Below, piece by piece: positions 23,761-41,531 of a DNA stretch of 64,000 bases. Each line of letters starts with the position of its first letter. Positions within the stretch are counted from its first letter, which is position 1. Made by a program: the position numbers and the translations under genes. Source of the DNA: Sulfurospirillum sp. UCH001. GTDB taxonomy: Bacteria; Campylobacterota; Campylobacteria; Campylobacterales; Sulfurospirillaceae. The notes beneath the pieces are model-generated. The model ran no database searches. It had not been told where the DNA came from and worked only from the letters and a program-made list of their open reading frames with translations. The stretch spans positions 806,001-870,000 of the forward strand of contig NZ_AP014723.1 in the NCBI RefSeq assembly GCF_001548035.1, in the 5' to 3' direction.

Positions 23761-23798
23761 CTCTTTTACAGGCAAACGCCTGTAAAAGAGTTCTTTCT
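23761..23798. terminator. Bidirectional terminator, ychF / FTR-rhodanese
   Basis: A perfect 13-bp stem (23761-23773 with 23778-23790) and AAAC loop, followed by a T-rich tail on both strands. It serves two convergent genes. Confidence 0.88.
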
Positions 23799-24541
23799 TA
23801 CTCTCCGCTTTCACATTCTCCATCATACGCCATAATGCCATATTCAAGATTGATTACGGTTTTATAACCCATATGTTTTAAAATACGTTGACAATACGCA
23901 CTTCTACTTCCGCTGTAACAGTAAACAATGACCGGTGTGTTTTCTTTTCCGTTTAGCTGAGAGAGCGCATTGTGAAAGCTGGTGGTGGGGATGAGGTAGT
24001 CTGTACCTTTAATGCGGTTTCCTATCCACTCCATCCATTCGCGTGTATCGACAAGGTTGAACGCTACTTTGCCATCTTCTCTCGCTTCTAACAACGCTTC
24101 AAGTTCACTACCATCTAATTGTTCTTTTTTAAGCAACACCTCACACTCTTCTTTACTTAAACCTCTGGCATGTGTATGTACAGCTTCTTCTGCGCTCTCT
24201 TCTTGGGCGAGTTCACGTGCATGTTCTGGGGTACAAAAGATCGTACAGTGGCATTTCCCATGTTGTGGAATTTCAACCGTGAGTGCATGGGTACAAGGAC
24301 AGAGGCGATTATTCTCTTTGGCTTGCTCTTCAGGAGTGTTTCCAATCACCATAAAACAGGGGCAATAGCGCTTGCCATAGATGAGTTTATTGCGAGTTAA
24401 GCCTTGTTGTATCGACTCTTTGACTTCATCAAGGGGAGTGTAAACAAAACCAAATTGTGCGCAGACTTTATCGGTAAATGCTTCTGTTTTTTCAAATTCT
24501 GCTAAAAATTCTGCTGAGTTCATATCTATTTTAGTTATCAA
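23798..24541 (-). CDS. Ferredoxin:thioredoxin reductase catalytic-chain + rhodanese fusion
   Basis: 247 residues. The N-terminal 110 carry the catalytic-chain signature of ferredoxin:thioredoxin reductase: KRYCPCFMV, then CPC, then HGKCHCTIFC. These ligate a [4Fe-4S] cluster beside a redox disulfide. A rhodanese domain follows, with LVDTREWMEWIG and active loop CYSGSRS. The start appears to be TTG at 24541, since AAGGA lies six bases upstream; the ATG at 24523 has no site. The fusion suggests ferredoxin-driven reduction of a persulfide on the rhodanese, which is inference. Confidence 0.8.
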   Translation of the reverse strand: MITKIDMNSAEFLAEFEKTEAFTDKVCAQFGFVYTPLDEVKESIQQGLTRNKLIYGKRYCPCFMVIGNTPEEQAKENNRLCPCTHALTVEIPQHGKCHCTIFCTPEHARELAQEESAEEAVHTHARGLSKEECEVLLKKEQLDGSELEALLEAREDGKVAFNLVDTREWMEWIGNRIKGTDYLIPTTSFHNALSQLNGKENTPVIVYCYSGSRSAYCQRILKHMGYKTVINLEYGIMAYDGECESGE

Positions 24542-24769: not shown

Positions 24770-25330
24770 ATGCAAACGATTCAACCACAAATGATTTCAA
24801 GATTGGATGCGTGTAAATACCTTCGAGACATTTTCAATGCTCAAAACTCTAAAGCACTCAAAAAAGCTTTTGATGCACTTGGCTCTTCTATAACTATTTC
24901 AGAAGAAGAGCTAGAAGTAACATTCAATCGTTACTTTGTAGGACCGATGGAACCTGTTGCAGACCCTTTTGCTTCAGTTTATTTGGACAATCCAGATGTT
25001 GTGATGTCTCAAAGTACCTTACAGGTAAGAGAACTCTACGAAACCATGGGCTTTACATATCCCCTTAAAAATGTCATTCCCGAAGATCATCTAGGCGTTG
25101 AACTCGATGCGTATTACCAATTGCTTTATCTTGAAGAGAAAAAAGAGATCACCTACTTAAGTGAACTTCGTCACTATTTTTTACATGAACACATGAACCT
25201 TTGGGTGCCCCGTTTTATCGAGAAAGCCTTAAGGGAGAGTGAACATGACTCTAAAGCCATTACCTTTATTTTATTACAGCTCAAATCGTTATTGATAAGA
25301 GAAACAACTACACAAGGAGTTACCGCATGA
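24770..25330 (+). CDS. TorD/DmsD-family molybdoenzyme chaperone
   Basis: 186 residues, all helical in character, with YFVGPMEPVADPFASVYLD and YLSELRHYFLHEHMNLWVPRF. The latter corresponds to the E-x-x-D/H-H-x-x-x-W region of TorD-like chaperones. These bind the twin-arginine signal of a molybdoenzyme during cofactor insertion. The gene overlaps the following molybdopterin oxidoreductase by 4 bp, which identifies its client. Confidence 0.8.
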   Translation: MQTIQPQMISRLDACKYLRDIFNAQNSKALKKAFDALGSSITISEEELEVTFNRYFVGPMEPVADPFASVYLDNPDVVMSQSTLQVRELYETMGFTYPLKNVIPEDHLGVELDAYYQLLYLEEKKEITYLSELRHYFLHEHMNLWVPRFIEKALRESEHDSKAITFILLQLKSLLIRETTTQGVTA

Positions 25331-27603
25331 GTTACTCAAAGGAAAACGTTGAATCCATTGTGAACAATGGGCTCAGCCGAAGAAGTTTTTTAAAAGGGCT
25401 TGCAGCCAGTGGTGTGTTGTCATCATTTCCAGGAGGTATCCTCCAAGCAAATGAAGACCTCAATACAAAAATACCTTATTTAGGGCAAAAGAGCTATCAA
25501 ACATTCCGTAATGCCTGTCCTAGAAACTGTTATGACACCTGTAGTATTAAAACCTACGTTAAAGATGGTGTTATGCAGTTTATCGAAGGTGCACAAGAAT
25601 CAACCTATACCAGAGGAGGGTGTTGTGTAAAGGGTAATTCGTATGTGAAGAGAGTTTACTCTGCACGTCGTTTAAAATACCCAATGATGCAAGTAGGTGG
25701 CAAAGGCTCAGGTAACTGGAAGCGTATCTCTTGGGATAATGCAATCGATATTATCGCTAAAAAGCTACTCGAGATAAAAAAAGAAGATGGCACACTTTTA
25801 GGTGCAGCCCTTACAAAATACTCTGGTAACTTCGGTATTACGCATTATGGTATTGAGGGTATGTTTAATTCTATCGGCTATACTACAAGACTTGCGGGAA
25901 CACCGTGTTGGCCAGCGGGCATTGATGCGCAAAACCTTGATATGGGCGATATGTGGTGTAACGATCCTGAAGAGATGAAAGACAGTAAATTTATCATTCT
26001 TTGGGGTGTGAATCCTGCTGCAAACTCTATTCACTCGATGAAATACATCTATGAGGCGAAGAAAAAGGGCGCTAAAGTTGTCGTGATCGACCCTATTTTT
26101 ACAGAAACAGCTTCAAAAGCGAGCCAATACATTCAAATCAAAACAGGAACTGACGGTCTTCTTGCTCTTGGTATGGCAAAAATCATCATTGAAGCGGGAT
26201 TGCATGACCAAAAATGGTTGGATGCAAACTCTAAGGGGTATAAAGAATACAAAGCATACCTCGATAAAGAGATCAAACTGGATGATGTAGCAAAAACTAC
26301 AGGTATCCCTTTAGCGATGATTAAAGAGTTGGCTTTATCATTTGCCAAAGCGAAACCTGCAACCATCTGGATGGGCTATGGTATGCAACGCCACACCAAT
26401 GGTGGCTCAATGATAAGAGCGATTGATGCGTTTGTTGCAGTCTCTGGAAACATTGGCAAATATGCTGGTGGAGCGCGCTATGGACACCTAAGTACATGGG
26501 GCTTTAACTATGCAGCGCTTTCTCAGCCAAAACCTGAAGGCAGTGTAGGCTACAGTGGACCAGAGGGTGCTAAAGGTGAGTTTGCTCAAGTGGGTGGCGC
26601 AAAAGCAGCCTATACAGATCGTTTCTTAAACATCAACAAAACAGCACGTGAACTTTTAAATGCAAAAGAGCCAAAAGTAAGACTCCTTTGGGTTGCATGT
26701 AAGAACGTCTTTGCTCAAGACTTTGACCGCAATCAACTCATCCGTGCATTCCAACAACTTGACCTTGTTGTCGTAGCAGATCAATTCTTCAATGAAACAG
26801 CGAAATGGGCAGACATCGTTCTTCCTGTAGCAACACAGTTTGAAGAGTACGATGTGAACGTCTCTTACTGGCATTATTGGTTAAGCCTTAATGAGCAAGC
26901 GATCAAACCTCTGTTTGAAGTCAAATCCGACCTTGAAATCGCAGCAATGCTCTCAAAACGTATGAATCAACTCTCTGCAGGCTCATGTACGTTCCCACAA
27001 AGTGCCGATACCAAAGCGATGATGGTTAAAGAGTTTAACCCTGGTATTTATGAGCAGTTTGGCATCAAGTCATGGGAAGAGCTCAAAAATGGACCAGTGA
27101 AAGCAAAAGCGGTCATTCCGTATGCGGATGGCAAATTTAAAACACCAAGCGGTAAGTTTGAGTTTTACTCCGATAAAGCGTTAGAGCTTTTTGGTAGTGC
27201 CTTACCAGCGTATCTTGAAGTGCGCAAACCATACGATAAATTCCGTATGACATCTCCTCACAGCAGATGGAGCCTCCACTCTCAGTTCCAAAACTTAGAA
27301 TGGATGGAAGATGTGCATCCTGAGCCATACGTTTACATCAACCCAGATGATGCTGAGGCGAAGATGGTCAAAGAGGGTGACACCGTAGCAGTCTTTAACA
27401 AACAAGGACTTCTAAGACTCAAAGCAAAGCTTACGGACAATGTACAAGCAGGTACACTCTTGATGTACGAGCAATGGTATAACAACAACATTTACAATGT
27501 CAATGAACTGGTCGATGACACGAGCTCAGATATGGGTGCATTTAAAACAGGTGCTCCTGGTGTTGCCCTGCACGATACCTTTGTCAATTTTAGAAAACTA
27601 TAA
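25327..27603 (+). CDS. Molybdopterin oxidoreductase (DMSO reductase family, DmsA-like)
   Basis: 758 residues. The twin-arginine signal SRRSFLKGL sits near residue 17. A [4Fe-4S] motif (CPRNCYDTC and GGCCVKG) and a molybdopterin domain (LWGVNPAANSIHSMKY, WMGYGMQRHTNGG) place it in the DMSO reductase family. At the usual metal-ligand position the sequence reads GTPCWPAG, so Cys194 is the best candidate ligand, unlike the serine of DmsA or TorA. It is followed by a four-cluster Fe-S subunit, but no NrfD/DmsC membrane anchor is nearby. Electron acceptor unknown; S-oxide, N-oxide or a sulfur compound are all possible. Confidence 0.82.
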   Translation: MSYSKENVESIVNNGLSRRSFLKGLAASGVLSSFPGGILQANEDLNTKIPYLGQKSYQTFRNACPRNCYDTCSIKTYVKDGVMQFIEGAQESTYTRGGCCVKGNSYVKRVYSARRLKYPMMQVGGKGSGNWKRISWDNAIDIIAKKLLEIKKEDGTLLGAALTKYSGNFGITHYGIEGMFNSIGYTTRLAGTPCWPAGIDAQNLDMGDMWCNDPEEMKDSKFIILWGVNPAANSIHSMKYIYEAKKKGAKVVVIDPIFTETASKASQYIQIKTGTDGLLALGMAKIIIEAGLHDQKWLDANSKGYKEYKAYLDKEIKLDDVAKTTGIPLAMIKELALSFAKAKPATIWMGYGMQRHTNGGSMIRAIDAFVAVSGNIGKYAGGARYGHLSTWGFNYAALSQPKPEGSVGYSGPEGAKGEFAQVGGAKAAYTDRFLNINKTARELLNAKEPKVRLLWVACKNVFAQDFDRNQLIRAFQQLDLVVVADQFFNETAKWADIVLPVATQFEEYDVNVSYWHYWLSLNEQAIKPLFEVKSDLEIAAMLSKRMNQLSAGSCTFPQSADTKAMMVKEFNPGIYEQFGIKSWEELKNGPVKAKAVIPYADGKFKTPSGKFEFYSDKALELFGSALPAYLEVRKPYDKFRMTSPHSRWSLHSQFQNLEWMEDVHPEPYVYINPDDAEAKMVKEGDTVAVFNKQGLLRLKAKLTDNVQAGTLLMYEQWYNNNIYNVNELVDDTSSDMGAFKTGAPGVALHDTFVNFRKL

Positions 27604-27615
27604 CAGGAGATTGTG

Positions 27616-28254
27616 ATGCAAAAAGCTTTTTTAGTCGATGGCAGTCTTTGCCTAGGATGTAATACATGTGCAATGGCCTGTAAAAATCAGTACCATCAAG
27701 ATAAAGGAATTTTGTGGCGTAAAGTGCGTGAAATAGGTGCGGAAGAGTATCATCACGATAACAATAATATTCTGCCAACCTTAGTCTCGTACCAAAAAGC
27801 GCCCAAAGCGCAAATGCCTATGGAGCGTTTTTATTTTTCATTGGCATGTAACCACTGCGAAAATCCAGCGTGTGTGGCAGTATGTCCTGTTGGAGCGCAT
27901 ACGAAAGACCCTGAAACGGGCATTTGTAAACATGACCAAACGATTTGTATCGGGTGTGGTGGTTGTGTAAAAGCGTGTCCATTTGGTGCTTCAAAGTTTA
28001 ATGAGAAGATGAATCAAGCCGAGAAGTGTAGTATGTGTTGGGAGAGACAAGCCGATGGTAAAACAACAGCGTGTGTGCAGTCTTGCCCAGTTGGCGCCAT
28101 TGCCATTATAGACTTGCATGATCCAAAATACAAAGAGTACGCCAATGCTGCGCCTATTGGTATAGACTACGCGATTAATGCGGAGACAAAGCCTAGTACG
28201 CGCTTTATTCATCCAACGATGCCAAAAGAGGTCTATAGACTTCCAAAAGGATAA
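27616..28254 (+). CDS. DmsB/PsrB-like four-cluster Fe-S subunit
   Basis: 212 residues from the ATG at 27616 (AGGAGA five bases upstream; a GTG three bases earlier is less well spaced). Four [4Fe-4S] motifs are visible: CLGCNTCAMACK, CNHCENPACVAVCP, CIGCGGCVKACP and CSMCWERQ...CVQSCP. It wires the molybdoenzyme to an electron donor. There is no signal peptide, so it is presumably co-exported with the twin-arginine partner. Confidence 0.88.
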   Translation: MQKAFLVDGSLCLGCNTCAMACKNQYHQDKGILWRKVREIGAEEYHHDNNNILPTLVSYQKAPKAQMPMERFYFSLACNHCENPACVAVCPVGAHTKDPETGICKHDQTICIGCGGCVKACPFGASKFNEKMNQAEKCSMCWERQADGKTTACVQSCPVGAIAIIDLHDPKYKEYANAAPIGIDYAINAETKPSTRFIHPTMPKEVYRLPKG

Positions 28255-28258
28255 CGCC

Positions 28259-28687
28259 ATGAGAGCAACACTTCTTACGTTAGTGTTGGCTTACAGTGTT
28301 GTGTTTTCTTACGCTTGGGGGAATCCTCCCCCGAATACCTGTAGTTTTGGAGACCCACATTTTGAGGCATTGTCGCATCAAAATGTTACGCTCATAGAGC
28401 CTAAAAACTACGTGGTTGGCGAAGAAAACTTCGTTATAATACAGCTCGAAAAGCCTGAACTTCCCTCTGGGTATATGGTAAGCGTTTTTGTGGATACCCT
28501 CAAATCACCTAAAGGTGAGCCAGAAGTGCAGGGTTGGTACCCGAAAACAAGCATAAAGCCTTTGGATGAGGGAGTTTATGAGATGTCAGTTCGCGTGAAT
28601 CTGATGTATAAAGGGAGCTGAGGCGGTATTTTGGTTGCAAGTCTTGCAAATACAAAGATTCGTTTTACCGCAAGAAAGTTGAAATGA
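28259..28687 (+). CDS. Predicted exported selenoprotein (in-frame UGA, Sec121)
   Basis: A 142-residue protein if UGA at 28619-28621 is read as selenocysteine; 120 residues if it is a stop. Signal peptide at 1-19, then a beta-rich domain with Cys28. Past the UGA the frame stays open for 21 codons, with a plausible beta strand (GGILVASLANTKIRF) up to a TGA at 28685. UGA is followed by a hairpin very like the E. coli fdhF SECIS. Readthrough cuts the gap to the next gene from 81 to 15 bp, as expected in this tight operon. It lies 4 bp after the Fe-S subunit gene. I do not recognise the family; a redox partner of the reductase is inferred. Confidence 0.7.
28619..28656 (+). promoter_or_regulatory. 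SECIS-like element
   Basis: After the UGA come 11 nt, then GGTTGCA, loop AGTCT and TGCAA. The 5-bp upper stem pairs 28635-28639 with 28645-28649; a lower 4-bp stem pairs 28630-28633 with 28653-28656. From memory, the E. coli fdhF SECIS has the same 11-nt distance, GGTTGCA and a GU-containing loop. The key loop GU is at 28641-28642. Confidence 0.7.
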
Positions 28688-28702: not shown

Positions 28703-29395
28703 GTGGATAAACTGTTTTTAGAACGATTGAAAACGCTCAAAATTCTCTATGCTGAAGATGAAGAGGGTATAAGAGATAACATAGCAGCATCGCTTCGTTA
28801 CTATGCTAAAGAGGTCATCGAAGCAGAGAATGGAAAAATTGCACTAGAGCTCTACAAAAGTGAACATCCTGACATTGTAATTACCGATATTTTAATGCCT
28901 GTTATGAACGGTGTGGATCTTGTAAGAGAGATTCGTAAGACCGATGAAATGACACCGCTGGTTATCATTTCCGCACATACCGATAGAGAGTATCTGCTTA
29001 AAGTCGTTGACTTGCATTTAGAACAGTACATCATCAAGCCAGTAACACTCAATGGCTTGCTCGAAGCACTCTCTCGCTGTTTAAAGCGCATTTCTCAAAC
29101 GCATACCATTGTCTATGAACTTCCCTGTGGTTATATGTACGATGTTGACTATAAACATTTAACCTATGAGGGTGAGACCATTCATCTCAACAAAAAAGAG
29201 TCGGGATTTTTAGAGTTACTGCTTCATAATAAACAACGCATTGTTACCTATGATGAACTCCAAGCCAACGTATGGCAAGATGACGTGATGACAGACAGCG
29301 CACTGCGCTCATTGGTCCGCAACTTGCGCAAGAAGTTGCCGAAAGATTTTATTACCAATTTATCGGGAGTGGGGTATCGATTTGAGATGTGCTAG
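28703..29395 (+). CDS. OmpR-family response regulator 1
   Basis: 230 residues from a GTG with AAGGAG eight bases upstream. Receiver domain 1-125 with the acidic pair EDE and phospho-acceptor Asp62 (IVITDILMP) and the KPV motif. Winged-helix output domain 140-230, with recognition-helix region MTDSALRSLVRNLRKKLP and the GVGYRF end. The output domain is nearly identical to that of the second regulator at 34336 in the helix that reads DNA. It is followed by an overlapping solute-binding protein and histidine kinase, together forming one signalling set. Confidence 0.88.
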   Translation: MDKLFLERLKTLKILYAEDEEGIRDNIAASLRYYAKEVIEAENGKIALELYKSEHPDIVITDILMPVMNGVDLVREIRKTDEMTPLVIISAHTDREYLLKVVDLHLEQYIIKPVTLNGLLEALSRCLKRISQTHTIVYELPCGYMYDVDYKHLTYEGETIHLNKKESGFLELLLHNKQRIVTYDELQANVWQDDVMTDSALRSLVRNLRKKLPKDFITNLSGVGYRFEMC

Positions 29396-31052
29396 AGTGT
29401 TTTGGTTACTGCTGGTTTTGATGAACTTTGGGTATGCAGGGGAGTGGAAGAATCCCTTTTATTACCGCAGTGACGACACCGCATCTATGCTCATTAACGA
29501 ACGTGTTTCTGGCTCTCACATCAAAGTTTTTTTACCCACTATGCCCTATTTGTATGTCTCTAAACTGGTGAATGGTACACTGGTGCGCTCAAGTGGAAAC
29601 CGTCAAGGTTGGGAGTATATGATGGCAACATCCTATACAAAAATAGATGATCTCACCTATGAGTTCTCCTTGCGTAAAGGAGTCCTATTCCAAGATGGAA
29701 CACCCTTTAATGCGGATTCGGTGGTAGAGAATTTTGACTATTTTATGAAAGATCCTGTGGTGTATTCGGACATTCATAAACGACTCAAAAGCGTCACCAA
29801 AGTCGATGAACATACCATTCGTATTCATCTGCATAAGCCGTATGGGCTTCTTTTTAGTGACCTTACCTCTATCAATCTTTATACATCTGCTTACCTCAAA
29901 CGTTATGGTTGGAGTACGAAAGAGGGCTCTACATGTAACAGTATGCAAGCCCCAGGTCCTTATGGGCTAGGACCTTATATCCTTAAACAAGGCTATGCGA
30001 CAGGGCGGTTTCAAACGCCTATTTTAGAGCTTATAGCCAATCCTAACTACTATGAGGTAGGCTTGCCGTACATTGAAAACATTACCATCTATACAGAGTT
30101 AACGTCAAAACAATCGGTGAGTATGGCTTTAGAAGAGGAGAGCTTAGATATAACGCCCATCCCTTTCAATAAAAAAGTTGAAACCGTACTCTCAACGTAT
30201 GCAAGACTCTATACCAAGCCTTCAACACACAGTATCTCGATTTACTTTAATCTTTTAAAGCCTAACAGTAAACTCAAAGACCAAAACATTCGCATAGCGC
30301 TCAATAAAGCACTCAACCAAGCCAATCTCCTCAACTTTGTGTATAAAAAAGAGGGTGAACTCGCACCCACAGAAGCTTCTGTGAACTATCGCTCTGTTAA
30401 ACGGGCAACCGAGCATCTTCAAACATGGGGTGAGCGTGCTCGTCAAAATCCTGAAGAAGAAAAAGAGCTTAAAAAGATTTTGAATGGCTTGGAACTGGAT
30501 GTCATTACGATGGACCGCTTTATGTTTTTATGGCGAGGCATTGAGCATCAGTTGAAAAAATACGGCGTAACCCTTCGCTATACGACCACACCCAATGAAA
30601 AAGAGATTTACGAGCAACTATTAACCAACAGAGCATCGCCTAAAACATGGGACATCTTAACATGGGGCAATGATGACTGGAGTAGTAACAACCCTTGGAC
30701 AGCGTTTTTTGCGTATCGCATCTCCGATAAATGGTCGGCAATCGATAAAGACGATGTGATGCAAGAGTACATTGAGCGTTTCTTTGATGTTGAATTTCAA
30801 AGTGAAGCATTTGATGAGGTGGTTTCAAAAATCGTTAAAAGAGCCTATGAAAAGGCATATATGCTGTTTGTGCCTTCTCCTAACATTGTTCTAGCGGTCA
30901 ATAAAGAGGTGCGTTATGAGCCTTCATCGGTTTTGATGATGCCCTTATGGAAGGCAAAGCTGACCAAATACCATTGGTCGATTAGGAACAATGCAAGTTA
31001 TCCCAAAGAGCGTGAAGCACCGATGCTTCCATTAAGGTTTGATTATGATTAA
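29382..31052 (+). CDS. Orphan SBP_bac_5-family solute-binding protein 1
   Basis: About 556 residues with an N-terminal signal peptide (VFWLLLVLMNFGYAG) and the peptide/nickel-binding fold: LRKGVLFQDGTPFNADSVVENF near 95-115 and GPYGLGPYIL in the middle. No ABC permease or ATPase gene is nearby. Instead it lies between a response regulator and a histidine kinase, overlapping both, so I infer a periplasmic sensor role comparable to TorT in the Tor system, though from a different family. The start is TTG 29382 or GTG 29397; the site is unclear. Confidence 0.8.
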   Translation: MRCARVFWLLLVLMNFGYAGEWKNPFYYRSDDTASMLINERVSGSHIKVFLPTMPYLYVSKLVNGTLVRSSGNRQGWEYMMATSYTKIDDLTYEFSLRKGVLFQDGTPFNADSVVENFDYFMKDPVVYSDIHKRLKSVTKVDEHTIRIHLHKPYGLLFSDLTSINLYTSAYLKRYGWSTKEGSTCNSMQAPGPYGLGPYILKQGYATGRFQTPILELIANPNYYEVGLPYIENITIYTELTSKQSVSMALEEESLDITPIPFNKKVETVLSTYARLYTKPSTHSISIYFNLLKPNSKLKDQNIRIALNKALNQANLLNFVYKKEGELAPTEASVNYRSVKRATEHLQTWGERARQNPEEEKELKKILNGLELDVITMDRFMFLWRGIEHQLKKYGVTLRYTTTPNEKEIYEQLLTNRASPKTWDILTWGNDDWSSNNPWTAFFAYRISDKWSAIDKDDVMQEYIERFFDVEFQSEAFDEVVSKIVKRAYEKAYMLFVPSPNIVLAVNKEVRYEPSSVLMMPLWKAKLTKYHWSIRNNASYPKEREAPMLPLRFDYD

Positions 31053-32709
31053 GTATCTTTCCATGCGGTATAAATTTTTTTTGATGGCGTCTTTGGGCAT
31101 TTGTGCGATTGTCACGCTCTCTTTTTTAGCGTTTGACATTACCAACAAAGGTGTGGTTAATGTCAACAACGTTTTTGAAGGCTCAAAGCGGGTACAAACC
31201 ATTCAACAAACTTACATTTTGCCACTCTTTAAGCTTCGAGAACAATCACTTTCGCTTATTATGGCGCCCAATGAAGACCTACGTAAGGACATCCTCAAAA
31301 AAATAAATGAGATGCATGCTCAAATGGAAGGACCTTTTAGCAAGCTTCCTGCGACCGTGTATTACCAATGGAAAAATTATGTAGCGCTTATCTTAGCCAA
31401 TCAAGCCTACCTCAAAGATGACTTTGAAGAGGGGGCTTTTATCAATGCCAATACGGTTGAACGCGACCAGTTTTACGCACTCATGGACTCACTTGAAGTG
31501 TTACAGCAAAACGAACTCACGCATTCATCTGAAACGTATGCTAAAGCCAATAAAGAAGCGGTCAATTCGCGTTATTTTATTGCGACGTGGCTCATCATCA
31601 TCGTTCTGTTAACCTTCTTGGTCGGCTTTTTTATCGCAAAAAATATCGTAGATTCTATTTTACTTGTAAGACGTGGACTTAGAGAATTTTTCGACTACTT
31701 AAAATCGCCTTCAACAGAAGAAGCGACACGCATTCACATCCCCCTTGCCAATAAAGACGAACTGGGCGATATGGCAAAGCAGATCAATAAAAACATTGAG
31801 ATCATTCAAGCCAATTTAGAGCAAGACAGCAAACTCATCGAAGATGCGACCAATGTTGTGGAAGACCTAAAATTAGGCAACCTTGATCGAAGGCTTGTCG
31901 CATCTGGAAACTCTGACCAGCTCAATCTTCTTAAAGCAGTGATGAATGAAATGCTCGATAACTTAGAACTTCGCATTCAGCAAGAGATCGATGAGCGGAC
32001 ACGACAAGAACAGCTTCTCATTCAACAAAGTAAGCTTGCTGCTATGGGCAATATGATCGGCAATATCGCCCATCAATGGAGACAACCGTTAGGTGAAATC
32101 AATGCACTTTTAATGATCATTCAAGTCAGACAGCATTTTGATGACTTTAATGAAGCATTTTTAACGGAGAAGATCGAGGAGTGTAACCGCATCACTGCCT
32201 ATATGTCCAACACCATCAGCGACTTTCAAAACTTTTTCAAACCTTCCAAAGATAAAGAGATTTTTGAGATCAACAATGCGTGTGAGCGAGCAAGTTCCAT
32301 CATTCAAGCCTCACTTCGTTACCACTCTATTGAGTTTTCATTTAATCCAGCAGATGAGATCAAAGTGCTAGGCTACCCTAATGAGTTCGCTCAAGCGCTT
32401 CTTAACATTCTCTCCAATGCCAAAGATGTCTTAACAGATCGCAATATCGAAAATCCTTTTATTCGCATGAGTGTCAAAAAAGGTGAAAAATACACGCTCA
32501 TTAAGATTGAGGACAATGGCGGGGGAATCGCAGAAGAATATATCGAGCGTATATTTGAGCCTTACTTCACAACCAAACACGCTAAACAAGGCACAGGCAT
32601 TGGACTTTATATGACGAAGATGATTATAGAAAATAACATGAATGGTATCGTTACGGTTAAAAATACCGAAGAAGGAGCGCTCTTTACAATTAAAATCAAA
32701 CATCATTAG
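31045..32709 (+). CDS. Membrane histidine kinase 1
   Basis: About 554 residues. A membrane helix near 12-32, a periplasmic sensing region, a second helix near 175-195, a HAMP-like/coiled region, then a HisKA domain with phospho-acceptor His343 (NIAHQWRQP) and an HATPase domain with NILSNAKDVL, DNGGGI and TGIGLYMTK. The start at ATG 31045 follows AAGG; it overlaps the binding-protein gene by 8 bp. Its cognate regulator is presumably at 28703. Confidence 0.87.
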   Translation: MIKYLSMRYKFFLMASLGICAIVTLSFLAFDITNKGVVNVNNVFEGSKRVQTIQQTYILPLFKLREQSLSLIMAPNEDLRKDILKKINEMHAQMEGPFSKLPATVYYQWKNYVALILANQAYLKDDFEEGAFINANTVERDQFYALMDSLEVLQQNELTHSSETYAKANKEAVNSRYFIATWLIIIVLLTFLVGFFIAKNIVDSILLVRRGLREFFDYLKSPSTEEATRIHIPLANKDELGDMAKQINKNIEIIQANLEQDSKLIEDATNVVEDLKLGNLDRRLVASGNSDQLNLLKAVMNEMLDNLELRIQQEIDERTRQEQLLIQQSKLAAMGNMIGNIAHQWRQPLGEINALLMIIQVRQHFDDFNEAFLTEKIEECNRITAYMSNTISDFQNFFKPSKDKEIFEINNACERASSIIQASLRYHSIEFSFNPADEIKVLGYPNEFAQALLNILSNAKDVLTDRNIENPFIRMSVKKGEKYTLIKIEDNGGGIAEEYIERIFEPYFTTKHAKQGTGIGLYMTKMIIENNMNGIVTVKNTEEGALFTIKIKHH

Positions 32710-34335: not shown

Positions 34336-35010
34336 ATGTCCCATAATCCATTAAAACACCTGAGCATCCTTTTTGTTGAAGATGAAGATCGTATACGTAA
34401 GCACATAACAAACTCTTTACGTTATATTGTTCAAGATGTTCAAGAAGCAAGCAATGGCAAAGAAGCGCTTGAAATTCTTAAGCATTTCTCTCCTGATATC
34501 ATTATCACAGACCTTGAAATGCCTGTCATGAACGGAGTAGATTTTATTAAGACCATACGCAACAATGGTCTTGATACATGTGTTGTTGTGTTAACTGCGC
34601 ATACGAATAATGAATATCTTTTACCTTTGATTAATGCTCATATTGAGCATTATATTGTTAAGCCTATTCGTTTTGAAAAAATGTTGCATATTCTTCAACT
34701 ATGTAATGCCAAATTAACAAAACTAAAAGATAGTCAAGATCTTCCAAAAGGTTATAGTTACGATTGGAATCAAAAGATGCTGAGTTATGAAAATCAACAG
34801 ATTGTATTGACAAGAAAAGAGATTGCTTTTTTAGAGCTTCTCTTTCAAAATATGCACCGTATTGTTACCTATGATGAGTTTCAGCAGCATGTTTGGGTAA
34901 ATGCAGTCATGACAGATGATGCAATTCGCTCTCTAGTCCGTAACCTTCGGGCTAAACTACCAATAGATATTATTAGCAATTTATCGGGGATTGGATATAA
35001 AATTGAATAG
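34336..35010 (+). CDS. OmpR-family response regulator 2
   Basis: 224 residues, paralogue of the regulator at 28703. Receiver with EDED acidic cluster and Asp59 (IIITDLEMP), VKPI motif, then a winged-helix domain with MTDDAIRSLVRNLRAKLP and GIGYKIE. The close match of the recognition region to regulator 1 suggests that both read the same or overlapping DNA sites. The gene overlaps the following binding-protein gene. Confidence 0.88.
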   Translation: MSHNPLKHLSILFVEDEDRIRKHITNSLRYIVQDVQEASNGKEALEILKHFSPDIIITDLEMPVMNGVDFIKTIRNNGLDTCVVVLTAHTNNEYLLPLINAHIEHYIVKPIRFEKMLHILQLCNAKLTKLKDSQDLPKGYSYDWNQKMLSYENQQIVLTRKEIAFLELLFQNMHRIVTYDEFQQHVWVNAVMTDDAIRSLVRNLRAKLPIDIISNLSGIGYKIE

Positions 35011-36640
35011 AATTTTAACTCTATTTTTACTTTGTATTAGTATTCAGCTTTTTGCTGTATCTGAGTATGCCGTAGATAAAGCTTCTGAAATAAGCCTTAC
35101 AGAAAAAAATAATTCATCACATCTTAATGTTTACATTCCATCTTTACCCTATGCGTATATTATGAGATTAATTAATGGCACTTTAGTGAGACTAAGTGAT
35201 TCCCCTCAAGGATGGGAGTATTACATAGCATATAGACACAAAAAAATAGATGATATCACCTATGATTTTTGGTTACGTCATGATGTAAAATTTCAAGATG
35301 GTACACCTCTTGATGCAGACGCTGTTGTGAATAATTTTAATCACTTTTTACAAGGTGCCTTTACCTACACCGATATTCATCACAAATTAAAATCTGTTAA
35401 AAAAATTGATAATTATCATATACGTATTCAACTTAATGAGCCTTACGGAATGCTTTTTCATGATTTAGCAAGGATCAATCTTTATACGACAGAGTATTAT
35501 AAGCATCATAAATGGTCCAAAAGCATTACTGCGGAAAATACAGCGATTACAGGGCCTTATGGTGCTGGACCTTATATACTCGTATCTGGTTATGCTACTG
35601 GGCTTACGCAGAGTGATACAGTTGAATTAAAAGCTAATCCATATTATTATGAAGAAGAAAAACCCTACATCCAAAACCTTACAATTTACACACGAAAACC
35701 TGTTGAACACGTTATTGAAGAACTGGCCAATGAAGAAGGGAAGATGGATATTGCCTTTATCCCATTGAATAAAAAAACGGAAATTGTAAATTCTAAATAT
35801 GCAAAATTAGTTACAATTCCTTCGACGACGACGCTTAGTTTTCATATGAATTTGATGAACCCACATACCCCTTTGCATGATATCCGTATTCGTCAAGCCC
35901 TTAATCAAGCTCTAGATCAAGAAAAACTTGTCAAATTTGCGTATAAAGGTGAAGGTGTTATCTCTCCTTTCCCTATTTCTTCAAATATGCCTTCTGCTTA
36001 TGCACTTTCCAAAGAGTATACACTTCATCCTCCTCATTCATTTAGCCAGGAAGAATTGAAAGCTATTTTAAATGGGCTAACATTGAAAATTATTACGCAG
36101 GATAGATTTTTACCCATTTGCAAAGGTATCGAATATCAGTTGAAAGCATATGGGGTTACACTCCTTTATGATATTACCAGTGATGAAAAATATGTTTTCA
36201 AAAAATTATTGACTAATCGAGAAAATCATTTTGATTGGGATTTTTTAATATGGGGTAATGAGGATTGGTATGGACACCCTTGGGCAACAATGTTTACATT
36301 TTATACGCAGAATCAATGGTCCTCTATTGATGAAGATAATACCTTAGATGAGTATATTAGAACATTATTTACACTGGATAAAACAGATAATAAATTTATT
36401 CCATTAGTTGAAGCTATTTTAAAGCATCTTTATAATCAATCTTACATGTTGAGCATTCCTTCTCCAAATACTGTCATTGGGATGAATAAGGAAGTAGATT
36501 TTATTCCTTCATCTGTAGCAATTATGCGCCTATGGGAAGCGAAAATTACCCCTTATCACTGGTCTATACGAGGTAACAAATCTCTTCCCAAAGAGCGTTT
36601 AGATTATCAACTACCTAAAAGGCTACACCCAAATGAATAA
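34991..36640 (+). CDS. Orphan SBP_bac_5-family solute-binding protein 2
   Basis: About 549 residues, paralogous to the protein at 29382 along its length: signal peptide (ILTLFLLCISIQLFA), LRHDVKFQDGTPLDADAVVNNF and GPYGAGPYILVSGYATG. Again no ABC transporter subunits are present, and the gene is sandwiched between and overlaps regulator and kinase genes. The start is a TTG (34991, or 35003). The gene is more AT-rich than its paralogue. A periplasmic ligand-sensing role is inferred; the ligand may be the oxidant of the neighbouring TorA-like reductase. Confidence 0.8.
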   Translation: MDIKLNRILTLFLLCISIQLFAVSEYAVDKASEISLTEKNNSSHLNVYIPSLPYAYIMRLINGTLVRLSDSPQGWEYYIAYRHKKIDDITYDFWLRHDVKFQDGTPLDADAVVNNFNHFLQGAFTYTDIHHKLKSVKKIDNYHIRIQLNEPYGMLFHDLARINLYTTEYYKHHKWSKSITAENTAITGPYGAGPYILVSGYATGLTQSDTVELKANPYYYEEEKPYIQNLTIYTRKPVEHVIEELANEEGKMDIAFIPLNKKTEIVNSKYAKLVTIPSTTTLSFHMNLMNPHTPLHDIRIRQALNQALDQEKLVKFAYKGEGVISPFPISSNMPSAYALSKEYTLHPPHSFSQEELKAILNGLTLKIITQDRFLPICKGIEYQLKAYGVTLLYDITSDEKYVFKKLLTNRENHFDWDFLIWGNEDWYGHPWATMFTFYTQNQWSSIDEDNTLDEYIRTLFTLDKTDNKFIPLVEAILKHLYNQSYMLSIPSPNTVIGMNKEVDFIPSSVAIMRLWEAKITPYHWSIRGNKSLPKERLDYQLPKRLHPNE

Positions 36641-38288
36641 CTTTAGTATCCGTGCAAAATTTCTTATTTTAGGTATCATTGGACTTATCTCATTCCTCTC
36701 GTTGGCTCTTTTGTCTCTCAACATCAACCAAAAAGGGTTTGATAATCTTCAAAATGTTTTTACTGACTTTAAAAAAGTTCAAAATATTCAAAGTGACTAT
36801 ATTGAGCCTCTTTTTGTGATTCGAGAAACTATTTTAACTTTAGTAATGTCACCCAACGATGAATATAAAAAAGGCGCGGATGAGCGTCTTTTTCCCCTCA
36901 TTGAAGAGATAAAGAGTCGTTTTCAAAATGTCCCTGAAGTCCTTCAAAAAAAGTGGCTAGCGTATGAGCGTTCTCTGCAAACTACCCGTCAATACGCACT
37001 AGAAGGATTCGATGAAGGCTCATTTATGAATGCCGTTTCAGATGAGAGAGAAGCATTTTATCAGCTTATATTTCAACTTAAAAACTTACAAGAAGAACGT
37101 CTTGAATTGTCCCAAAAAACATTTAATAATGCTGAAAATACTGTTTTACAAAGTCATTACTATTTAATTGCTGGATTTGTACTTATAGGATTAATCAGTT
37201 TTCTTTTCGACTCAATTATTGTGAAACAAATTGTAAGCTCCATCGAAAAAGTCCAACAAGGACTTAAATCGTTTTTTATCTACTTGCGCCATCAAAAACC
37301 CTACGATGAAGAGCTGTTTATTCACATTGAACACAACGATGAGCTTGGTAAAATGGCGGAAGCGATCAATCAGCGTGTTGCTGAGATTCAAGAAGCACTC
37401 CACCAAGACAGACTACTTATCCAAGAAGCCACAGAGACCGTGAACAATCTCAAAGAAGGAAAATTTGGACAACGCTTGCACAGTAGTGCTGATTATCCAG
37501 AGCTCAATGCCCTAAAAGACGTGATGAACGCCATGATCGATAATCTGGAGCGAAAAATTCAAGAGGAGATAACTAGACGTAGTGATCAAGAAAAGCTACT
37601 CGTCCAACAATCAAAACTAGCAGCCATTGGTAATATGCTCGGCAATATCGCACACCAATGGCGACAACCCATCAGTGAAATCAATGCTATTTTGATGGAG
37701 ATTGAGGCTATTAGCCGTTATCATACCCTTACCCAAGAGGTACTCATCTCAAATCTTAAACTCTGTTACGATGTGACAGACCATATGTCCAACACCATAT
37801 GCGACTTTCAAAATTTCTTTAAACCCTCCAAAGAGCAAGAGCATTTTAGTGTCATTGAGGCGTGTAACAATGCTGTTTCTATTATCAGTTCTTCATTAAA
37901 ATTTCATAATATTACACTTGTCTATACAACTACCAGTAAAGATAGTTTTGTTTTAGGCTACCCTAATGAATTTTCTCATGCTATTTTAAATATTCTCTCT
38001 AATGCAAAAGACATTTTAGTGGAACGAAAATGTGAAAATCCGTGCATTACATTGAACATAAAAATGGGAAAAAAATTTACCATCATTCGTATTGAGGATA
38101 ACGGTGGTGGAATTATTTCAGAGAATATAGAGCGTATTTTTGAGCCTTACTTTACGACCAAACACGCTAAACAGGGCACAGGTATTGGCCTGTATATGAC
38201 AAAATCTATTATAGAAAACAATATGCAAGGTTATGTCAGCGTTGAAAACACATCAAAAGGAGCCTTGTTTACTATCAAAATTCGTTAA
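36633..38288 (+). CDS. Membrane histidine kinase 2
   Basis: 551 residues, paralogous to the kinase at 31045. Helices near 8-30 and 175-195 frame a periplasmic region, followed by HisKA with His341 (NIAHQWRQP) and HATPase motifs NILSNAKDIL, DNGGGI and TGIGLYMTK. The start ATG overlaps the binding-protein gene by 8 bp. The periplasmic part differs more from kinase 1 than the catalytic part does, which fits sensing through different binding proteins. Confidence 0.87.
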   Translation: MNNFSIRAKFLILGIIGLISFLSLALLSLNINQKGFDNLQNVFTDFKKVQNIQSDYIEPLFVIRETILTLVMSPNDEYKKGADERLFPLIEEIKSRFQNVPEVLQKKWLAYERSLQTTRQYALEGFDEGSFMNAVSDEREAFYQLIFQLKNLQEERLELSQKTFNNAENTVLQSHYYLIAGFVLIGLISFLFDSIIVKQIVSSIEKVQQGLKSFFIYLRHQKPYDEELFIHIEHNDELGKMAEAINQRVAEIQEALHQDRLLIQEATETVNNLKEGKFGQRLHSSADYPELNALKDVMNAMIDNLERKIQEEITRRSDQEKLLVQQSKLAAIGNMLGNIAHQWRQPISEINAILMEIEAISRYHTLTQEVLISNLKLCYDVTDHMSNTICDFQNFFKPSKEQEHFSVIEACNNAVSIISSSLKFHNITLVYTTTSKDSFVLGYPNEFSHAILNILSNAKDILVERKCENPCITLNIKMGKKFTIIRIEDNGGGIISENIERIFEPYFTTKHAKQGTGIGLYMTKSIIENNMQGYVSVENTSKGALFTIKIR

Positions 38289-38401: not shown

Positions 38402-38974
38402 ATGCTAAAGAAAACCATCAGTGTCTTACTTGCATCAAGCGCATTGTTTGCTGGCGATGTATTGTATTCGGTGAAAGACAAACCTGTCTATTCAGATGCA
38501 ACTTCAACAAAAGTGATTGGAAAGTTGCTTCCAACCAATGCGATTGAAGTTCTTGTAGAAGAAGGCGAGAGAGTTAAATTTAAACTTAAAGGGTATCAAA
38601 ATCCAACAGCGCCAAATGTTATCTATTTTACAGATAAAGCGCGTATCTTTTCCTTAGCGTTTGCTAAAACAGCAACACCTGATATTAAAGTGGATGTTAA
38701 GGGCGAAAATGGAAAATGGAACAGCGTTAGTGTAGAAGCGTACACGACAAAAGGTGATTTTGAAAATAAAATGGAACCAATGATGGAAAGAGCAAGTAAG
38801 CTCTATTCAGACAATTGCTCTATTTGCCATACCCTTAATACTGTAGATCACTTTACTGCCAACCAATGGCCTTCAACATTTCGTGCAATGCTTGATAGAA
38901 CGCCAATCCAAAAAGAGGATGTTTGGTTAGTCATTGAGTATCTACAAAAAAATGCTAGCGATATGAAAAAATAA
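38402..38974 (+). CDS. Periplasmic monohaem cytochrome c, partner of TorA-like reductase
   Basis: 190 residues with signal peptide (MLKKTISVLLASSALFAG), a beta-rich N-terminal half and a single CSICH haem site (Cys139, Cys142, His143) in a C-terminal cytochrome domain. The layout and position match Cj0265c of Campylobacter jejuni, the cytochrome that sits with the TMAO/DMSO reductase Cj0264c. It probably passes electrons to the next gene's product. A GGAGG site precedes the ATG. It lies 10 bp upstream of the reductase gene. Confidence 0.82.
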   Translation: MLKKTISVLLASSALFAGDVLYSVKDKPVYSDATSTKVIGKLLPTNAIEVLVEEGERVKFKLKGYQNPTAPNVIYFTDKARIFSLAFAKTATPDIKVDVKGENGKWNSVSVEAYTTKGDFENKMEPMMERASKLYSDNCSICHTLNTVDHFTANQWPSTFRAMLDRTPIQKEDVWLVIEYLQKNASDMKK

Positions 38975-38984
38975 GGAGCTTCGT

Positions 38985-41531
38985 ATGGAACAAATAATCA
39001 GTAGAAGAAATTTTTTAAAGATCGGCGCTTCACTAGCGGCAGTTCCTGTTCTTTCGCATTTAACAGGAACTTATACACTTTTTGCACAAGAGATGTCTTC
39101 AGACTTAATCAAAAATGGTGAAGTGATGACAGGTGCTCACTGGGGTGTACTTAAAATTACTCTAAAAGATGGCAAAATTGTTGATTCAAAACCTGCGTAT
39201 ACTACGAGTACCATTCCAAACTCACTGCAAGTTAATACTGCTGATATGGTTTATAAATCACGTGTTAAATACCCAATGGTAAGAAAAAGCTATCTTGAAA
39301 ACCCAGACAATCCAAAATCAGCCCTTAGAGGTAGTGAAGAGTTTGTGCGTGTGAGTTACGAAGATGCCATTAAACTGGTTGCGAGAGAGCTTAAAAAAAC
39401 ACGTCAGCAAAAAGGATCTGAAAGTATTTTTGCAGGTGCTTATGGATGGAAAAGTGTTGGTAATGTTCATAACTCAAGAATTTTACTGCATCGTTTTATG
39501 AATCTTAGTGGTGGATTTACAGGAACATTAGGGGATTATTCAACAGGTGCAAGTCAAGTAATTATGCCACATGTGCTTGGAAGCATTGGAGTTTATGAGC
39601 AGCAAACCAGCTGGCCAGTTGTTTTACAACACTCTGATGTCGTTGTTATTTGGGGTGCAAATCCTATTTCTACGCTTAAAATTTCATGGCAGATTGATGA
39701 TGGACAAGCGTTTGCATACCTAGAAAAACTCAAACAAAGCGGTAAAAAAATTATCATTATTGATCCAAGACGTTCTGAAACTGCACGTTATTTTGATCAA
39801 GCGACATGGATATCTCCACTTCCAAATACGGACGTTGCGATGATGCTTGGTATGGCGCATCACCTCTATAGCAACAACAAAGTCAACAAAGAGTTCCTTG
39901 ACACGTACACCTTTGGCTTTGATAAGTTTAAAAGCTATCTTTTGGGCAAAGAAGACGGCATTGAAAAAAATGTTGCATGGGCAAGCAAAATTTGTAAAAT
40001 TAGTGAAAAAATCATTAAAGAGCTCGCTGAACTCTTCTTCGATAAACGTACGTTCATCATGAGTGGATGGGGTATGCAAAGAGCGCATCACGGCGAACAA
40101 CCACACTGGGCACTTGTTACTTTGGCATCGATGATTGGACAAATCGGCCAACCTGGTGGCGGTTTTTCACTAGGTCATCATTATAGTGGAGCAGGTGTTC
40201 CAACACGTAAAGGTGCTGCAATTGGTGGTATGAATGCTGCAAGTTTGGGTTTTTTCGATAAAGATGGAAAATTTGTTGGTACAAAAGCAGCAGACGCAGG
40301 TGAAAACAATACTGGTGAAAGTTGGAAACAAAAAGTTTCAGCATCTTCATTCCCTGTTGCAAGAATTTCAGATGCACTTTTAAATCCAGGAAAAACTATA
40401 CAACACAATGGTAAAAACATTACTTACCCAGATATTGACTTTATTTATTGGGTCGGTGGTAATCCATTTTCACATCACCAAGACACCAATACTCTTGTAA
40501 AAGCATGGAAAAAGCCACGTACGGTTGTTGTGAACTCCATCTACTGGACTCCAACAGCAAAAATGGCTGATATCGTTTTTCCTACGACCTCACAATACGA
40601 GAGAAATGATATCGCTATGATTGGTGATTACTCTAAACATGGAATTGCCCCTATGAAACAAGTGGTTGCAAAACAGAATGAAGCGCGTGATGATTATCAA
40701 ATTTTTTGTGACTTATGCCTTGCATATGCTGGTAAAGAGCTCTTCAATGCTTATACAGATAATGGTAAAAAAGAGATGGATTGGATCGAAGAGTACTACA
40801 ATACTGCTTACAATACAATTCTAAAAACACCACAACTCATTACCGACATGAAACCATTTAAAGAATTTTGGGCTACGAATAAGCCAGTTACATTTAGTTC
40901 AACTATGGAAAGTGAAGAATTTATTAAATTCAAAGATTTTATAGAAGATCCAATTTTACAACCACTAGGTACCCCTTCTGGTTTGATTGAAATTTATTCT
41001 GAAACGATTGCCAAGATGAACTACGATGATTGTAGAGCATATCCAAGTTGGTTTGAACCAGCTGAGTGGCTTGGAATGAAAAATAAACCGGCAGAGTTTC
41101 ATATGATCAGTGCCCATCCTCATGATCGTTTGCATTCTCAACAAAATCAAACAAGCCTACGTGATTCATACGCAGTAGCTGGACATGAGCCAATTTATAT
41201 CAATACCAAAGATGCGGCAAAAAAGGGTATTAAATCGGGTGATGTAGTACGTGTCTTTAACAAACGTGGTGAGATTCTTGCAGGTGCCGTGGTCACTAAT
41301 GACATTATGGAAGGTGTTGTCAATATCTATGAAGGTGTTTGGTATGATCCTGAAAAACCAGGCGTTTCAGGAAGTATTTGTAAAAATGGTAGTCCAAACC
41401 TTTTAACACTCGATATCCCAACTTCAAAATTGGCAAACGGCAATATTTCACATACAGCACTTGTTAATATCGAAAAATTCAAAGGTTCTAAAAAACCACT
41501 CACCGCATTTACGGCTCCAAAAGGCGCTTAA
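38985..41531 (+). CDS. TorA/BisC-like molybdoenzyme (TMAO/DMSO-type reductase)
   Basis: 848 residues. The twin-arginine signal SRRNFLKIG is at the N-terminus, with no N-terminal [4Fe-4S] cysteine motif, as in TorA, DorA and BisC. The molybdenum ligand is Ser186 in GDYSTGA, and typical segments FYWVGG-like and SGWGMQRAHHGEQPHW are present. It reduces N- or S-oxides in the periplasm. It is the counterpart of C. jejuni Cj0264c. Its own chaperone is not adjacent; the TorD-like gene at 24770 belongs to the other operon. A terminator follows. Confidence 0.87.
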   Translation: MEQIISRRNFLKIGASLAAVPVLSHLTGTYTLFAQEMSSDLIKNGEVMTGAHWGVLKITLKDGKIVDSKPAYTTSTIPNSLQVNTADMVYKSRVKYPMVRKSYLENPDNPKSALRGSEEFVRVSYEDAIKLVARELKKTRQQKGSESIFAGAYGWKSVGNVHNSRILLHRFMNLSGGFTGTLGDYSTGASQVIMPHVLGSIGVYEQQTSWPVVLQHSDVVVIWGANPISTLKISWQIDDGQAFAYLEKLKQSGKKIIIIDPRRSETARYFDQATWISPLPNTDVAMMLGMAHHLYSNNKVNKEFLDTYTFGFDKFKSYLLGKEDGIEKNVAWASKICKISEKIIKELAELFFDKRTFIMSGWGMQRAHHGEQPHWALVTLASMIGQIGQPGGGFSLGHHYSGAGVPTRKGAAIGGMNAASLGFFDKDGKFVGTKAADAGENNTGESWKQKVSASSFPVARISDALLNPGKTIQHNGKNITYPDIDFIYWVGGNPFSHHQDTNTLVKAWKKPRTVVVNSIYWTPTAKMADIVFPTTSQYERNDIAMIGDYSKHGIAPMKQVVAKQNEARDDYQIFCDLCLAYAGKELFNAYTDNGKKEMDWIEEYYNTAYNTILKTPQLITDMKPFKEFWATNKPVTFSSTMESEEFIKFKDFIEDPILQPLGTPSGLIEIYSETIAKMNYDDCRAYPSWFEPAEWLGMKNKPAEFHMISAHPHDRLHSQQNQTSLRDSYAVAGHEPIYINTKDAAKKGIKSGDVVRVFNKRGEILAGAVVTNDIMEGVVNIYEGVWYDPEKPGVSGSICKNGSPNLLTLDIPTSKLANGNISHTALVNIEKFKGSKKPLTAFTAPKGA

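Follow-up and report, generated by a model that had tools for sequence, protein, structure and literature searches.

We found that the gene at positions 28259–28687 of the window (the whole 64,000-nt stretch of Sulfurospirillum sp. UCH001 DNA analyzed here) very likely encodes a selenoprotein associated with a molybdenum enzyme. This reading is inferred from sequence alone, and no peptide or 75Se evidence is available. The sequence evidence for selenocysteine consists of a UGA codon flanked on either side by conserved coding sequence, a hairpin that covaries and sits at the position of a SECIS element, the presence of the Sec machinery, the conservation of the operon, and a single Cys and a single Sec in the protein, both invariant.

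The reading frame and its conservation past the UGA codon

The gene lies on the plus strand of a 2.6 Mb genome represented by a single contig. Its frame opens with ATG at 28259, contains an in-frame UGA at 28619–28621, and continues for 21 sense codons to a terminator UGA at 28685, which is followed by UAA; readthrough translation gives 142 amino acids including the signal peptide, with the UGA as predicted selenocysteine 121. The gap to the next gene, starting with GTG at 28703, is 81 nt if the UGA is a stop and 15 nt with readthrough. An earlier note on this DNA had claimed the same start, UGA, 21-codon extension and change of the gap from 81 to 15, along with an 11-nt spacing between the UGA and a hairpin, and all of these held, as did the Fe-S subunit gene directly upstream and the presence of Cys28.

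A total of 23 homologues, including the window protein, were found in four genera and three families, with a lowest identity to the window protein of 31%. Within the genus, 16 of 24 genomes carry a homologue, the genome under study counted, and the nearest named relatives carrying the gene belong to Sulfurospirillum. A profile search of 397 genomes of the phylum, which is a partial sample, added two more distant homologues, and deeper searches of the families of these two brought the total to 23.

The UGA is found at the same site in 23/23 homologues, whereas the true terminators of these same genes vary (TGA in 6, TAG in 1, and TAA in 16). The pattern S-U-[GA]-G-[IVM]-x-[VF]-[AT]-S-[LM] is kept around and after the UGA, and the 16 codons past it showed no in-frame stop in 22 homologues, whereas 16 and 7 stops were counted in the two alternative frames. 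Ten divergent representatives, analyzed with the hairpin left out, gave per-site difference rates at codon positions 1, 2, and 3 of 0.37, 0.36, and 0.58 after the UGA, and of 0.36, 0.26, and 0.62 before it. Because of the conserved pattern, the lack of in-frame stops and the third-position excess, the stretch downstream of the UGA is coding sequence in the same frame, a result that rests on sequence alone. The earlier note had named as a refutation the case of homologues all ending at this UGA with unrelated sequence beyond; this is not so, since conserved in-frame coding was observed in 23/23.

A Cys aligned to the UGA, for which the earlier note had proposed a search, was not found in the 397 phylum genomes, in two families searched deeper, in a scan of genome_contigs restricted to narrow patterns, or in plasmids, where tblastn returned no homologue at all; the family thus looks Sec-only, and the site lacks the support of a Cys form, which is a common filter for selenoproteins but not part of their definition. 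One apparent Cys homologue, L063 (LYQGSCGGIKFAS), was rejected, as it is antisense to a lipoprotein gene, which we take to be BamD/YfiO-like, and has no matching N-terminal part. Weak matches in three other genomes (G349, G443, and G333) were also discarded, since they aligned only to the middle of a protein of 597–605 amino acids.

The probable SECIS hairpin and the selenocysteine machinery

The putative SECIS apical hairpin, UUGCA-AGUCU-UGCAA, occupies 28635–28649 (plus strand), and starts 13 nt past the UGA, or 11 nt if counted from the GG at 28633. The 11 nt between the UGA and GGUUGCAAGUCUUGCAA equal the spacing in E. coli fdhF, where the sequence record reads UGA, CACGGCCCAUC, and GGUUGCAGGUCUGCACC, and has UUGCAGGUCUGCA at the same distance. 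Across 18 distinct sequences, all 90 pair cells were standard pairs (100% paired), and two pairs covaried with no unpaired state: pair 5 was found as A-U, C-G, and U-A, and pair 3 as G-C and A-U. The latter change is illustrated by one carrier (G412) with the hairpin UUACC-AGUAU-GGUAA, in which pairing is kept though the encoded amino acids differ. The covariation score of 0.295 was reached by 0/500 shuffles, and slid controls gave values of 0–0.122. The single-sequence folding energy was unremarkable (z from +0.25 to −0.82); the support for the hairpin is its covariation and position, not its stability.

The fdhA gene of the same genome displays UGA, 13 nt, and UUGCC-GGUGC-GGCAA, and this arrangement of a 5-bp stem 13 nt past the UGA, with a loop starting GGU and compensatory changes of its own, is shared by fdhA of the relatives. 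Moreover, the apical hairpin published for this group of bacteria has 5/6 bp and an invariant loop G (PMC4607533), and the window hairpin agrees with it. The claim of an fdhF-like SECIS therefore finds support in covariation and in the organism's own fdhA, whose hairpin has a matching position and architecture.

When a 5-bp Watson–Crick stem at +13 and a 5-nt loop starting [AG]GU were required, only 3 TGA triplets passed out of the 5166 present in about 124 kb of the genome, both strands counted, i.e., those of the selenoprotein gene, the fdhA Sec codon, and one unexplained site. The last is on the minus strand of L107, at about 9389 in reverse-complement coordinates, and has a 5-bp stem at +13 with a GGUGU loop. 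A covariance model trained on the fdhA SECIS alone recovered the hairpin in the window and in 10 other carriers with weak E values of 0.8–1.8 (11.4–10.1 bits); the hairpin was among the best matches, yet was outscored by one match without a stem, and this result is not significant alone. No Rfam match was obtained in the 24–33 kb portion of the window.

The Sec machinery of the genome was represented by selA (523.9 bits), the adjoining selB (304 bits) and selD (365 bits), each above its family cut-off, and by selC, which scored 56 bits against a gathering score of 47. The selD gene of UCH001 has no in-frame UGA. Near selA lies fdhA, which contains a UGA within an ARIUHSASVAG site, and the genome therefore uses Sec; this gene was located by reading near selA, as the FdhA model TIGR01553 gave no match at 1e-100 in the relatives. 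Among the 23 carriers of the selenoprotein gene, 21 have selA, and the two exceptions are fragmented assemblies. A genome without the machinery, the second refutation named in the earlier note, was thus also found not to be the case, as selA, selB, selC, and selD are all present. The selenoprotein reading itself is strongly supported by the sequence evidence, and direct proof of Sec is lacking. As a separate observation, an in-frame TGA in the context CAGUHSPHFSGP was seen at L107:2410–2463, and this could be either chance or another Sec site.

The molybdoenzyme operon and the predicted protein

All genes of the operon are on the plus strand. The first, at 24770–25330, encodes a TorD-like molybdoenzyme maturation chaperone (PF02613, E = 2e-23) whose position is conserved. 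It is followed by moA (25327–27603), for a TAT-exported catalytic subunit of unassigned specificity with molybdopterin, dinucleotide-binding, and Fe4S4 domains (PF00384, PF01568, and PF04879), which place it in the DMSO reductase superfamily, and by moB (27616–28254), for a DmsB-like Fe-S electron-transfer subunit with several 4Fe-4S motifs (PF13247; TIGR02951 below cut-off). Downstream of the selenoprotein gene is a sensory trio, whose members are all conserved neighbors: an OmpR-type response regulator (28703–29395; PF00072 and PF00486), a family 5 periplasmic solute-binding protein as putative sensor (29382–31052; NikA/GsiB-like NCBIfam matches below cut-off), and a membrane sensor histidine kinase (31039–32709; from the NCBIfam search).

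Among 15 loci taken from divergent carriers, the gene order torD-moA-moB-selenoprotein is the same at every one whose contig reaches far enough. The trio is downstream in Sulfurospirillum and two other genera, and divergent upstream in a third, and with its placement varying, the four-gene unit is the constant part. Orthologues of moA, 63–97% identical, were detected in 14/397 genomes of the phylum sample, and 13 of these 14 carry the selenoprotein gene. The only exception in the sample, G380, also lacks selA; its moA (L103, G380:C6) is 63% identical, and repeat-like sequence follows its moB. This genome keeps moAB without the selenoprotein, which is thus not indispensable to every such enzyme.

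None of the NCBIfam equivalog models was reached by moA, with PhsA, TorA, ArrA, TtrA, and the selenate reductases all far below their cut-offs, and its closest solved relatives by sequence include enzymes of the type II DMSO reductase family along with polysulfide/thiosulfate, TMAO, and formate enzymes. A selenate reductase role for the operon was set aside, since the match was not above the cut-off and since no moA orthologue passed the search threshold in G013 and G015, which we take to be S. barnesii and S. deleyianum. As no membrane subunit is encoded in the operon, a soluble partner is plausible. The association of the selenoprotein with the enzyme rests on genomic linkage, with no biochemical data.

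A second trio of response regulator, family 5 solute-binding protein, and histidine kinase was observed at 34336–38288; it is paralogous to that at 28703–32709 (47–52% identical) and adjoins a cytochrome c (38402–38974) and a TorA-like reductase (38985–41531). This placement suggests the substrate of moAB as the signal sensed by the first trio, and it is possible that each trio senses the substrate of its neighboring reductase.

Residues 1–21 or so of the selenoprotein are inferred to be a signal peptide, and export of the protein is inferred with it. In every homologue, the mature protein has exactly one Cys, Cys28 (codon at 28340–28342), and one Sec, Sec121, both invariant and among 20 fully conserved positions. 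AlphaFold2 predicted an Ig-like beta-sandwich with a mean pLDDT of 86–89, averaging above 90 for residues 41–110, and placed Sec121 in a turn between the last two strands of the model. Cys28 falls in a low-confidence N-terminal segment (pLDDT 54–60), so the distance between Cys28 and Sec121 is not given by the model. Structure searches returned only generic Ig-like or filamin-like domains, the best hits (Z 8.3–8.4, rmsd 2.5–2.9 over 82–88 residues) being tied with many generic Ig domains, and weak Foldseek rows included superoxide reductase and the copper-binding CrdA domain. DsbD-N and SoxY were absent among the listed rows of the fold searches, and this absence does not exclude either.

No Pfam or NCBIfam model matched the selenoprotein at E ≤ 1, and one of 12 members scanned matched YtkA (PF13115) at E = 0.085, below significance. 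DsbD-N, SoxY, and thioredoxin readings, which had been drawn from motif resemblance, are unsupported by Pfam and by the predicted fold. A thioredoxin-like selenoprotein was rejected because the predicted fold is an all-beta sandwich, the motif is S-U-[GA]-G, and no Cys is near the Sec in sequence (no CxxU or UxxC). Identity with SoxY was rejected because 21 residues follow the Sec, with no C-terminal GGCGG arm, and no Pfam or NCBIfam match was found.

Proposed role, rival explanations, and relation to known families

In the mechanism we propose, the hairpin at 28635–28649 would direct SelB, loaded with Sec-tRNA, to decode the UGA of 28619 as selenocysteine, and translation would stop at 28685. 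The 142-aa product would be exported, folded as an Ig-like beta-sandwich, and would act as a dedicated partner to the Mo/Fe-S enzyme whose genes immediately precede its own. We infer that Cys28 and Sec121 may cycle between a selenenylsulfide and a reduced selenol form, and that by this cycle electrons or a chalcogen-bound substrate may be delivered to the Mo enzyme or taken from it. Such a Cys/Sec redox-or-carrier role for a periplasmic Mo/Fe-S enzyme of unknown substrate is an inference that could as well prove wrong as right, and within it, electron or thiol/selenol exchange and covalent carrying of a substrate have roughly equal weight. The periplasmic Cys/Sec redox pair working with the molybdoenzyme that the earlier note had suggested fits the invariant, sole Cys28 and Sec121, but the two have not been shown to form a bond; the genomic link to the enzyme held, and it is not a biochemical one. 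A bolder reading, which we consider clearly less likely than not, is that this Sec-only exported Ig-fold family supplies a periplasmic molybdoenzyme of unknown substrate by means of selenium, as a covalent carrier or a redox shuttle; if true, Sec would be used here in a way that belongs neither with the active-site Mo ligand nor with the thioredoxin-fold types.

Two other assignments of function, with about equal weight, are possible but rather unlikely. In the first, the protein would be a SoxY-like carrier, in which Sec121 in the S-U-G-G turn holds a sulfur or selenium intermediate for the Mo enzyme to oxidize or reduce, and Cys28 resolves the adduct. In its favor are a small exported beta-sandwich, one reactive residue beside small residues, and an obligate Mo-enzyme neighbor. 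The Sox carrier, which works with the Mo enzyme SoxCD, provides a precedent. Against it, no sequence relation to SoxY or SoxZ was found in Pfam or NCBIfam, the Cys of SoxY is in a C-terminal arm whereas 21 residues come after the Sec here, and the substrate is unknown. In the second, Sec121 would ligate a metal or cofactor, or the protein would be a structural third subunit whose Sec protects or tunes the Mo/Fe-S enzyme. The strict synteny with moAB, the operon's lack of a membrane subunit, and the weak Foldseek rows for superoxide reductase and CrdA speak for it, but neither an invariant His nor an additional Cys is present to complete a metal site, the only plausible ligands among the 20 invariant residues are C28, D79, and Sec121, and the fold matches are generic Ig-like.

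Readthrough of the UGA by a route other than SelB (Trp or near-cognate insertion, or programmed readthrough) is very unlikely: the DNA evidence does speak more directly to readthrough than to the inserted residue, but the hairpin is at the exact position of the fdhA SECIS with the same architecture, the Sec machinery co-occurs with the gene, and no homologue has Trp or any other residue at the site. Equally improbable is that the UGA is an ordinary stop giving a 120-aa product, and that the conserved stretch beyond it is either an element of mRNA structure or a small coding unit of its own. An ORF caller that ignores recoding does end the gene at 28621 and the hairpin is strongly conserved at the DNA level, but the UGA shows none of the drift seen at the downstream terminator, amino-acid conservation and third-position excess continue in the same frame, the protein would lose its last predicted strand (124–139), and the genome without selA is also without the gene.

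The preferred reading, a selenoprotein decoded through SelB, shares with FdhA, a known selenoprotein encoded in the same genome, the UGA, the 13 nt, the 5-bp/5-nt hairpin with an [AG]GU loop start, and the Sec machinery. They differ in that FdhA is the Mo enzyme itself, with its Sec bound to Mo, whereas here the Sec is in a separate small exported protein. The DUF466 (KCU-star) selenoprotein of Campylobacterales (PMC4607533) is comparable in being from the same phylum, first seen through SECIS analysis, and missed by homology-based annotation; it has, however, a C-terminal Cys-Sec and Cys homologues, in contrast to the internal Sec, the signal peptide, the Mo-enzyme operon, and the lack of detected Cys homologues in the present family. 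The likeness to SoxY/SoxZ with SoxCD is by analogy only (the idea of a small exported beta-sandwich carrier and a Mo-enzyme partner), and the new protein, for which no sequence relation was found, has Sec instead of Cys, in an internal turn and not in a C-terminal arm. Exported Ig-like domains of the YtkA-like family (PF13115) are similar small beta-sandwiches, and to our knowledge no Sec or Cys site has been described in them. The N-terminal domain of DsbD is an exported Ig-like domain with reactive thiol chemistry; the selenoprotein differs from it in having no Pfam match to it and one Cys plus one Sec with no Cys pair.

The selenoproteins named in the 2015 epsilonproteobacterial survey (PMC4607533) include Fdh, SelD, SelW, thioredoxin, a peroxidase, and DUF466. 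Of the 119 prokaryotic selenoprotein families inventoried in 2026 (Table 1, PMC13188914), none was found to fit, with those defined only by cd or PTHR models left out of the model scans. The statement of the earlier note that this was not known as a described selenoprotein family held to this extent, with no fitting Pfam or NCBIfam model or inventory entry. The 2026 review and NCBIfam were the sole basis for judging the families of Haft and Tolstoy 2025 and of Miller 2017. With that restriction for Haft and Tolstoy 2025, this is likely a new selenoprotein family whose structural setting is also new, with recoding of a known kind. Every new family reported in the 2025 deep-Sep paper has Cys homologues, and the lack of a detected Cys homologue may be why this one was missed.

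If the reading is true, it adds a selenoprotein family that is exported, has an unusual predicted fold, and is tied to a Mo enzyme of the respiratory type; the bacteria concerned are known to respire with sulfur, arsenic, selenium, and organohalide compounds. Since the family has no Cys homologue among the sequences found, it would escape methods that need Sec/Cys pairs; this suggests that Sec-only families are under-counted, and the present one can serve as a test case in searches for others. Attention is also drawn to one particular Mo enzyme operon that has a sensor trio of its own, and its substrate can now be looked for. As a minor observation, a fusion of ferredoxin-thioredoxin-reductase-like and rhodanese domains, encoded on the minus strand at 23798–24541, resembles, below cut-off, the FtrB double-selenoprotein family, and Cys is encoded there, not Sec.
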